In this document: positions 22,050 to 40,149 of the stretch, piece after piece | How positions within the stretch are numbered: position 1 is the first letter of the stretch | How the letters are laid out: each line of letters begins with the position of its first letter | Origin: Brachyspira hampsonii 30446 | GTDB lineage: Bacteria > Spirochaetota > Brachyspiria > Brachyspirales > Brachyspiraceae | Direction of reading: 5' to 3' | DNA: 64,000 nucleotides | Assembly: GCF_000316195.1 (NCBI RefSeq) | Contig: NZ_JH994111.1 | Location: forward strand, 828,885 to 892,884 | Program-made: the position numbers and the translations under genes | Notes under the pieces: generated by a model | The model's input: only the letters and a program-made list of their open reading frames with translations | The model's database searches: none | Told to the model about the DNA's origin: nothing

Positions 22050-22153
22050 TTATTTACCAATTTTTATTTATGATTTATAAATAATATATTCATAATAAAA
22101 AAATAACAATATTATTTAACTATTTTTAATTTTTAAAAGGTATAATTATAAAA

Positions 22154-22493
22154 AGTAAGCGGAGCTATAAGCCGTATTCTGTCATTTAAGGTAAACATTT
22201 ATCTTGATATTATATTGCTATAATATTCCAGCGAGCCACCTGAAACTTAGGAAAAGGGCAATCCGTTTCTGTTTGCTCTTGCCTCTCATGGGGTTTACAC
22301 TGCCATTCATGTCGCCACAAATGCGGTATGCTCTTACCATGCCTTTTCACCCTTACCAAATTGGCGGTATATTTTCTGCTGCACTTTCCATAGACTTTCG
22401 TCTTCAAGCCGTTAGCTTGCATGATGCCCTTTAGAGGTACGGACTTTCCTCAGTATTAGTTACTTAAATACCGCGTTTACCCGCTCCGCATGC
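22154..22493 (-). ncRNA. rnpB: RNase P RNA (class A)
   Basis: Read on the minus strand, the region shows the universal RNase P RNA cores: CTGAGGAAAGTCC (CR-I) near the 5' side and ACAGAATACGGCTTATA (CR-V) near the 3' end. The P1 helix pairs GCGGAGC at the 5' end with GCTCCGC at the 3' end. The RNA cleaves the 5' leader from pre-tRNAs together with RnpA. It is clearly richer in G+C than its surroundings, as expected for a structured RNA. The ends are accurate to about five bases. Confidence 0.96.
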
Positions 22494-37579: not shown

Positions 37580-38812
37580 TTAATTATTATAAGTTATTTC
37601 TTTTCCTATGAAGCTGTCTGTGAATTTGCCATTATCATATACTGTATTTCCGCGTACTATAGTAGTTAAAACTTTGCCTCCTCTTTGAAAACCTATATAA
37701 GGAGACCAGCCTGCTTTAGTGATTATATCTTTTTCTTCTATTTCTGAATGGTCATTTAAATCTATTATTACTAAATCAGCATCATAATTTTCTTTTAATA
37801 ATCCTTTCTCTTTCATAGAGAAAATTTCTGCTGCTTTTTCACTCATAATTTTTGTAAGCAGTTTTAAATCTATAGTATTGTCATTAACTTTTTTAAGCAT
37901 CAATTCAAGCGAATGTTCAACAGAAGGAACGCCGAATGTAAGTTTTTCTAATTTTTCACTTATCAAATGAGGAGCATGATCTGTTCCTATTGTATCTATA
38001 GTACCATCTGATATCGCTTTCCATAATGCTTTATTATCTGATTTTTCTCTTAATTCAGGCTTCATTCTAAGTAGCATTTTATTTCTATCATTTTTGTTTA
38101 CATCTTCAGTATTTAAAAATAAATGATGAGGAGTAACTTCCCCATAAATTATCATTCCTGAGTCTTTTGCTTTTTTTAATGAATCAATTTCACTTTCTAG
38201 TGATAAATGGCATAAATATAATGGAGTATTAGTATTCTTTGCTATTTTTATTGCCTTATCAACCATTTTATCTTCTGCATGAACTGTAACTATTTTTGAA
38301 ACTTCAAATAACTTTTCTAATATTTTATCATCTTCTACAAGCATATTTCCTGTAGAAGCATTAAAGAAAATTTTTGTTGATGCTGCATCATTAATAATAT
38401 TTTTTATATCATCAGTATTATCTGCTTTGCTTCCTCCAAAATGAAAGCCGTAATCCACATAAGATTTTCCAATCATCATAGATTTTTTGGCAATGAGATT
38501 TTCTTTTGAAATAGTATTTGGTATAGTATTAGGCATATCCAAAAATACTGTAATCCCTCCTCTTGCACATGCTTTGCTTCCGGAATTAAAATCTTCTTTA
38601 TGAGTGAGTCCTGGATCTCTCATATGTGTATGTGGATCTATTATTCCTGAAATCACATAATTGAAATTAGCATCTATTATATCATCTGTTTTATTATCAG
38701 ACTTATATTTTTCAAAGTTGTTATCAGAATCTATAGTTTTTATTTTTCCATTTTCTATTATTATAGAAACTATTTTTTCATTGTTTGGTATTTTAGCATT
38801 TTTGATTATCAT
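37580..38812 (-). CDS. pyrC: Dihydroorotase
   Basis: The 410-aa amidohydrolase closes carbamoyl-aspartate to dihydroorotate in pyrimidine synthesis. DPHTHMRDPGLTHKEDFNSGSKACARGGIT (about 60-90) holds the HxH zinc ligands, VTHPHHL-like EVTPHHLFL and VTVHAEDK carry further His, and DTIGTDHAPH has the catalytic Asp. It is the type I (PyrC of Gram-positives, about 410-430 aa) form. It lies 16 bases after pyrB on the same strand, so pyrB-pyrC form one operon. Confidence 0.93.
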   Translation of the reverse strand: MIIKNAKIPNNEKIVSIIIENGKIKTIDSDNNFEKYKSDNKTDDIIDANFNYVISGIIDPHTHMRDPGLTHKEDFNSGSKACARGGITVFLDMPNTIPNTISKENLIAKKSMMIGKSYVDYGFHFGGSKADNTDDIKNIINDAASTKIFFNASTGNMLVEDDKILEKLFEVSKIVTVHAEDKMVDKAIKIAKNTNTPLYLCHLSLESEIDSLKKAKDSGMIIYGEVTPHHLFLNTEDVNKNDRNKMLLRMKPELREKSDNKALWKAISDGTIDTIGTDHAPHLISEKLEKLTFGVPSVEHSLELMLKKVNDNTIDLKLLTKIMSEKAAEIFSMKEKGLLKENYDADLVIIDLNDHSEIEEKDIITKAGWSPYIGFQRGGKVLTTIVRGNTVYDNGKFTDSFIGKEITYNN

Positions 38813-38828
38813 AATTTATCTTAATAAT

Positions 38829-39908
38829 TTATTTACCTATTTCTCTATTGCAGTAATAACAGAAATCTCCGTATCCCTTTTTCACAACTCTATTTTTTGT
38901 CTCTTCAAAATGTGTAACGCATTTATTATTTGGACAAACTATTTCTTTATTTTCTACAACCTCATAATTCATCTCTTTTCTTTTTACCTTAGATTTTATA
39001 ACATCTGTAGCCAAAGCCATCATAGCCATTCTTGTAGGCACCCCGTTTCTAGCCTGTATAAAATATTTAGCATATTTGGTATCATCTAAATCTATATTAA
39101 TTTCATCAACTCTTGGAAGCGGATGAAGTATTATCATATCATCTTTACACTTTCCTATAATATCGTCTTTTGATATTCTGAATGCATTTTTTACTTCTTC
39201 ATATTCATTAATATCATCAAATCTTTCTTTTTGTATTCTAGTCATATATAGGCAGTCTATTTCTTTTAATACTTCTTCATAGTTGCTAAGTTTTTTATAT
39301 TTTATTTTAGCATTATCCAATTCTTTTAATACATAATCCGGTATTTGTATAACATCAGGAGATATAAAATAAAACTCTCCATTAAACATCATTAAGCCAT
39401 CTACTAGAGAGTGAACAGTTCTTCCATATCTTGTATCTCCTACAAAAGCAATTTTTTTATTTTCTATACTTCCTAATTCTTCTCTTAATGTGTATAAATC
39501 TAGTAGAGTTTGACTAGGGTGTTCATTAGCACCATCTCCAGCATTTATAATAGGACAGTTTGTAACTTCTTCAGCAAATTTAGCAGCTCCATCAATACTA
39601 TGCCTCATAACTATAATATCTGAATATGCAGAAACCATAATTATGGTGTCTCTTAAAGATTCTCCTTTTTTTATGGAACTTTGTTCTGGGTTATCAAATC
39701 CTAATTCTTTGCATCCTAATCTGTAAGCGGCTGATGTGAATGATAATCTTGTCCTAGTAGAAGGCTCAAAGAATATACTAGTCATTATCATTCCGTCCAT
39801 AATCTTCCTTCTTTCTCTACTATCAGTGTTATCTAATTCCTTAGCTACATCTAATACTTCAATAACTTCCTCTTTTGATAACTCTTTGATAGATATAAAG
39901 TTCCTCAT
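38829..39908 (-). CDS. pyrB: Aspartate carbamoyltransferase fused to a PyrI zinc knuckle
   Basis: The 359-aa protein has a complete catalytic chain (about 1-308): FFEPSTRTRLSF (carbamoyl-phosphate site), HPSQTLLDLYT, the 80s-type loop KKGESLRDT and ILHPLPRVDEI. It makes carbamoyl-aspartate, the first committed step of pyrimidine synthesis. After the catalytic chain comes a 46-residue tail with CPNNKC and CYYC, which matches the zinc-binding C-terminal subdomain of the regulatory chain PyrI (Cys-x4-Cys and Cys-x2-Cys). The nucleotide-binding allosteric domain of PyrI is absent. AAGGGAG lies before the ATG. An attenuator-like leader precedes the gene. Confidence 0.93.
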   Translation of the reverse strand: MRNFISIKELSKEEVIEVLDVAKELDNTDSRERRKIMDGMIMTSIFFEPSTRTRLSFTSAAYRLGCKELGFDNPEQSSIKKGESLRDTIIMVSAYSDIIVMRHSIDGAAKFAEEVTNCPIINAGDGANEHPSQTLLDLYTLREELGSIENKKIAFVGDTRYGRTVHSLVDGLMMFNGEFYFISPDVIQIPDYVLKELDNAKIKYKKLSNYEEVLKEIDCLYMTRIQKERFDDINEYEEVKNAFRISKDDIIGKCKDDMIILHPLPRVDEINIDLDDTKYAKYFIQARNGVPTRMAMMALATDVIKSKVKRKEMNYEVVENKEIVCPNNKCVTHFEETKNRVVKKGYGDFCYYCNREIGK

Positions 39909-39938
39909 TATTTCTCCCTTAAAAAATAGTTAATTATT

Positions 39939-40091
39939 TTATTGAAATTCGGCATAAAAAAAAGGAATAAAATTGTTAAAGATAACAACCTTATTCCTTT
40001 TAAAAAATTCCAAATTCGTAAATTTAAATAAGTAAATATAATAGGTGTGCAAATAAAAAATTATCCTGTGCTTAAGAAATATATTTTTCAT
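39939..40091 (-). CDS. Putative pyr leader peptide, 50 aa (PyrL-like)
   Basis: ATG at 40091 is preceded by ACAGGATAAAAA and opens a 50-codon frame that ends at 39939, 30 bases before pyrB. The peptide is rich in Phe (11) and Tyr (5) because the RNA is U-rich. The frame runs right through the intrinsic terminator at 39956-40000, so a ribosome close behind the polymerase would prevent the hairpin from forming. This matches the logic of the E. coli pyrBI leader. The peptide itself need not have a function. Translation is inferred. Confidence 0.5.
   Translation of the reverse strand: MKNIFLKHRIIFYLHTYYIYLFKFTNLEFFKRNKVVIFNNFIPFFYAEFQ
39956..40000 (-). terminator. Leader terminator (attenuator) before pyrB
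   Basis: On the minus strand AAAGGAATAAGGTTGTTA pairs with TAACAATTTTATTCCTTT (18 bp, two G-U pairs, loop TCTT), followed by TTTTT. It lies inside the leader, 50 bases before the pyrB ATG. Confidence 0.85.
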
Positions 40092-40121
40092 TTTTTATCC
40101 TGTTCTTTACAAATTGAAAGG

Positions 40122-40149
40122 ATTATATCATGTATATAAAAAAAATCAA
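40122..40149 (-). promoter_or_regulatory. Promoter of the pyrB leader
   Basis: On the minus strand TTGATT (40149-40144), 16-base spacer and TATAAT (40127-40122). The leader from about 40115 to pyrB would be about 205 bases. Confidence 0.65.

Follow-up and report, generated by a model that had tools for sequence, protein, structure and literature searches.

Attenuation of pyrBI is a textbook case known from the enterobacteria. In the pyrBI leader of E. coli and Salmonella, which encodes the peptide PyrL, the promoter is followed by a short leader ORF, a U-rich stretch, an intrinsic terminator lying in or overlapping the ORF, and pyrB; the Brachyspira leader described here shares this order. 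UTP-dependent reiterative transcription has been documented in E. coli at pyrBI, carAB P1, codBA and upp, and stuttering at carAB P1 requires a run of three T residues and is enhanced when transcription starts with A (PMC6245113). Attenuation acts neither at carAB P2 nor at other arginine-biosynthesis genes of E. coli, and P1 is under initiation control (PMC6245113). The PyrR-dependent attenuation of the Bacillus pyr genes has in common with Brachyspira a terminator upstream of pyr genes and a PyrR homologue, and differs from it in that the Brachyspira genus carries neither the PyrR RNA element nor an antiterminator fold. Our search of the open-access literature yielded no account of control of this kind in spirochaetes.

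Results

Organization of the pyrB leader

We analysed a 64,000-nt window of a Brachyspira chromosome, in which the pyrB leader lies on the minus strand (Table 1). The next gene upstream of the leader, dxs, is oriented divergently and therefore the leader hairpin cannot terminate the transcript of another gene. The terminator is placed between a conserved promoter and pyrB, as an attenuator of the pyrBI type requires. The original prediction had put a promoter at 40149-40122, an ORF of 50 codons preceded by AGGA at 40091-39939, U-rich runs ahead of a terminator inside this ORF, and pyrB 30 bases further on. The promoter was found there as TTGATT-16-TATAAT, the ORF, its AGGA and the 30 nt between the ORF end and the pyrB ATG (at 39908) were all confirmed in place, and the U-rich runs correspond to U6 at 40060-40055 and 40007-40002. 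The stem was correctly located inside the ORF, and its length had to be corrected from 18 bp at 40000-39961 to 19 bp at 40001-39960. Three features considered below had been overlooked: the conservation of AATTT in the start region, the leader of carA, and the fusion of PyrB to a PyrI-like zinc domain.

Table 1. Features of the pyrB leader and operon, in positions of the window, and the carA leader
Feature	Position	Strand	Remarks
pyrB promoter: -35 TTGATT (40149-40144), 16-nt spacer, TG-extended -10 TATAAT (40127-40122)	40122..40149	-	
AATTTG, predicted initial transcribed region, candidate reiterative-transcription (UTP) site	40110..40115	-	6 nt past -10
Leader ORF Shine-Dalgarno, AGGA	40098..40101	-	
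Leader ORF, 50 codons, MKNIFLKHRIIFYLHTYYIYLFKFTNLEFFKRNKVVIFNNFIPFFYAEFQ	39939..40091	-	open into 5' arm in 24/24 genomes
U6 run, candidate UTP-sensitive pause stretch	40055..40060	-	
U6 run abutting the terminator (GGAATTTTTT)	40002..40007	-	conserved despite frame shifts between species
Terminator stem-loop, 19 bp, loop UCUU	39960..40001	-	6 pairs with compensatory changes
Terminator U8 tract; first bases pair with A-run at stem base	39956..39963	-	invariant U run in alignment
pyrB Shine-Dalgarno, AAGGGAG	39914..39920	-	
pyrB, aspartate carbamoyltransferase with C-terminal PyrI-like zinc domain	38829..39908	-	TIGR00670, 364 bits
pyrC-type dihydroorotase, second gene of the operon	37580..38812	-	
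carA leader, ~160 to 60 nt before carA in locus L108 (position: that of the locus)	G000:C4:440399-441448		homologues L115-L135

A profile search for the zinc domain gave a weak PyrI_C match at PyrB residues 323-357 that remains below the Pfam cut-off. The PyrB of Brachyspira (window positions 38829-39908) is closest to that of Fusobacteriota (62%, L040), while matches in the remaining genera of the family to which Brachyspira belongs reach only ~1e-45, a pattern that suggests transfer of the gene. The window also carries a class A RNase P RNA at 22152-22492 (RF00010, 276 bits).

The promoter and the AATTT start region

For the comparative analysis we used the 24 Brachyspira genomes having this pyrB, all of whose leaders are distinct. 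Both the -35 and the -10 of pyrB are kept across these genomes, and AATTT occurs at identical spacing, 6 nt past the -10, in 23 of the 24 leaders. Over its five sites we counted a single change, against about 4 per site in the surroundings: the six nucleotides before AATTT accumulated 27 changes and the seven nucleotides after AATTTG another 23. As a control, the 20 nt downstream of the carA -10 show no comparable conserved island, so that the start region of carA is unconserved in Brachyspira, whereas in E. coli carAB the same region is a stuttering site.

Reiterative initiation of the pyrBI type calls for A(A)TTT where a start site would be expected relative to the -10, and the pyrB sequence provides it. 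In E. coli MG1655 the pyrBI sequence reads TATAATGCCGGACAATTTG, that is TATAAT-7 nt-AATTTG, as against 6 nt in Brachyspira. The purine start and three-T run of the E. coli stuttering promoters are also conserved at Brachyspira pyrB, here as a likeness of sequence. The +1 of the pyrB transcript presumably lies at AATTT. AATTT is itself AT-rich and stands in an AT-rich genome, which counts against its significance, and a loose AATTT promoter pattern fits seven sites in the genome, pyrB and six other promoter-like ones. Because of these seven matches we dropped the rarity of the pattern as an argument and rely on conservation.

The leader ORF

Taken from a single genome, the evidence for the ORF is marginal, given that 4-9% of dinucleotide shuffles leave the frame open to the hairpin. 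Across the genus, all 24 genomes have the ORF with a conserved ATG, and its frame continues without a stop into the terminator's 5' arm (in L016 and L017 the ORF begins at the second ATG), while the other two frames mostly contain stops. Counting along the tree of pyrB genes, we found 172 substitutions in the stretch from ATG to hairpin; 5.8% of random substitutions would be nonsense, so that about 9.9 were expected and none was observed (P ~4e-5). In the first 14 codons the changes at the three codon positions numbered 19, 10 and 35, third positions varying most. The leader ORF is presumably translated.

Further downstream, indels between species change the frame in which the U-run and the hairpin are read, and the frame always stays open. 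The bases AATTTGGAATTTTTTAAA are translated as LEFFK or WNFLK depending on the species; for the stem the readings are NKVVIFNNFIPFF and GIKLLSLTILFLFF, and all of these are open. Given that the U-rich bases persist despite the change of frame, it is the RNA and not the codons that is conserved, and near the hairpin selection is on openness rather than on the peptide, as judged from the alignment. A frame held open into the stem fits a ribosome being needed to break the hairpin. The leader peptide gives no match to the PyrBI_leader family (PF08052), to which E. coli PyrL matches at 3.1e-34, and membership of that family was rejected.

The position of the stop varies: it may lie within the 5' arm, in the loop or a little beyond the start codon of pyrB, and in distance it ranges from 88 nt upstream of pyrB to beyond its start codon. 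One could suppose that the ORF is translated only for coupling into pyrB by reinitiation and that the hairpin is a plain terminator setting the basal level, since in many species the ORF stops near pyrB (30 nt away in this genome) and in L034 and L035 it extends over the pyrB start codon. We regard this as very improbable: a stop that may fall anywhere in that range is at odds with it, pyrB possesses its own Shine-Dalgarno, and in 6 of the 24 leaders the ORF ends within the stem-loop (inside the stem in L018; in the loop in L016, L017, L021, L022 and L024), too distant for coupling. A ribosome terminating at these early stops would still cover the 5' arm. ORF and hairpin were thus shared by all 24 genomes, as the original prediction expected, and the stop position was not; this is no obstacle because the mechanism does not require a fixed stop. 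The combination of a kept hairpin with a broken ORF, which would have spoken against the prediction, did not occur: the hairpin was always kept and the ORF was never broken before the 5' arm.

The terminator and the U-runs

The leader folds with z = -4.26, and none of 200 shuffles folded equally well. The stem is kept in 24/24 genomes, with compensatory changes at 6 of its 19 pairs; none of 500 shuffles scored as high and the signal vanished when the partners were slid against each other. A U-rich region, in which the U6 runs are conserved, precedes the terminator, as in leaders of the pyrBI type, and is a candidate for polymerase pausing. When the 3' arm was omitted, the consensus fold of the 24 leaders contained no alternative structure, and the leader held no conserved structure other than the terminator. 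An antiterminator of the kind used in amino-acid or PyrR attenuators was accordingly rejected; its absence is expected of pyrBI-type control because the ribosome itself would be the antiterminator.

These results bear on two other ways of controlling the terminator. An ORF with a terminator is compatible with any ribosome-mediated attenuator, and Phe, Leu, Ile and Tyr are abundant in the peptide encoded by the pyrB leader, so that leader translation might govern termination in response to the general translation rate or to one of these amino acids, as in the phe and leu attenuators. This is unlikely: no run of a single codon is conserved, the frame shifts alter the peptide near the stem and spare the U-rich bases, the carA peptide is unconstrained by codon position, and stalling models need the antiterminator fold that was not found. 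Alternatively, PyrR or another RNA-binding protein might act on the terminator, the ORF being incidental, and a PyrR homologue is indeed encoded in the genome (153.8 bits; cut-off 140). We consider such control very improbable, given that the Rfam PyrR element (RF00515) stayed below its cut-off in all 26 Brachyspira genomes searched and was not called in the window, in agreement with the original prediction, which recognised no PyrR-type binding sequence; a PyrR-regulated leader was rejected on these grounds. Moreover, the leader lacks conserved structure except the terminator, the pyrR gene is isolated and distant from the pyr genes, and PyrR would leave the maintained open frame unexplained. 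The stand-alone homologue (L045 1456-1983, minus strand), away from the pyr genes, is possibly only a uracil phosphoribosyltransferase.

The carA and pyrK leaders

At carA, too, a leader ORF stays open until it enters an intrinsic terminator, which lies ~60 nt before the gene; this holds for all 22 Brachyspira genomes with carA. Here 124 substitutions gave 7.3 expected and 0 observed nonsense changes (P 5.6e-4). The ORF has no codon-position bias, indicating that openness and not the peptide is selected, and it has no strong Shine-Dalgarno. Ahead of its terminator, the carA leader carries a small hairpin (CTGC...GCAG) and a U-run.

Upstream of pyrK (pyrK-pyrD-pyrFE) a hairpin is present in 19 of 25 genomes and absent from the B. 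pilosicoli group, and a short ORF often stops just ahead of the stem. In L136 (1640-1800, minus strand) this region comprises a promoter with CAATTTTC before the ATG, a seemingly leaderless ORF of 12 codons and a strong terminator. We treat control by the pyrK leader as a lead only.

In 464 kb of this genome, ordinary gene terminators start at a median of 23 nt past the stop codon and none of 63 overlaps the stop. This spacing fits coupled translation because ribosomes would disturb a stem lying nearer.

Other spirochaete and Fusobacteriota leaders

We extended the survey to pyrB loci of other spirochaetes (~45) and to a few of Fusobacteriota. In L068, L069, L075, L089, L105, Treponema vincentii (L044), L062 and a Fusobacteriales MAG (L042), a short ORF before pyrB enters a terminator or reaches up to it. 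The spirochaete examples come from families other than that of Brachyspira, and those of L068 and L075 look leaderless. In the MAG, an AT-rich leader ORF of 60 codons, ~330-70 nt before pyrB, stops in the terminator loop. Since these leaders were picked by eye and by a filter for having an ORF, we did not pool them into one P; most are not significant alone, L042 being the only one that is (P 0.0018). Fusobacteria are listed as a phylum with runaway transcription (PMC13323073).

Discussion

Our data make it probable that the Brachyspira pyrB leader is a ribosome-dependent attenuator comparable to that of E. coli pyrBI, with UTP as the likely signal. RNA polymerase would begin at AATTT, and the leader of the transcript would code for a short peptide. 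With ample UTP, part of the starts would stutter at AAUUU and abort, and the polymerases that escape would cross the U-rich leader fast and outrun the ribosome; with the ribosome left behind, the 19-bp hairpin would form and transcription would end before pyrB-pyrC. When UTP is scarce, there would be little stuttering and the polymerase would pause at the U-runs, so that the ribosome on the leader ORF would catch up and cover the hairpin's 5' arm; transcription would then proceed into pyrB-pyrC.

This reading is supported at the level of sequence by the presence of the parts, selection for the open frame, drift of the peptide near the stem, covariation of the stem, conservation of AATTT and the parallel at carA. 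Against it we count the PyrR homologue, the marginal ORF of the single leader, the lack of a strong Shine-Dalgarno and of codon-position bias in the carA leader ORF, and the AT-richness of AATTT. The kept hairpin and the unbroken ORF in 24 genomes bear out the PyrL-like attenuation of the original prediction; that UTP is what is sensed we infer from the conserved AATTT start region and the U-runs, which point to it. Unlike E. coli pyrBI, the Brachyspira locus has an AT-rich stem, a PyrI-like domain fused to PyrB, pyrC as the next gene and a peptide whose frame drifts.

More tentatively, and with rather less confidence than we place in the pyrB attenuator itself, these leaders may form a regulator-free pyrimidine regulon of spirochaetes, in which a leader ORF enters a terminator at pyrB-pyrC, at carAB and perhaps at pyrK-pyrD-pyrFE, ribosome-polymerase coupling would be the common UTP sensor, and pyrB would join a stuttering start to the attenuator, an arrangement reached independently of E. 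coli. Use at carAB would be new, given that carAB of E. coli is not described as attenuated (PMC6245113). Spirochaetota are not among the phyla listed as having runaway transcription (PMC13323073).

The two-stage layout is kept by selection across a spirochaete genus with an unrelated peptide, which points to convergent evolution or to a distribution of this control much broader than that recorded so far. We know of no measurement of transcription-translation coupling in Spirochaetota. Such attenuators work only where ribosomes closely trail RNA polymerase, and the pyrB leader would thus allow coupling in Spirochaetota to be tested directly, which bears on the question of which phyla couple translation to transcription.
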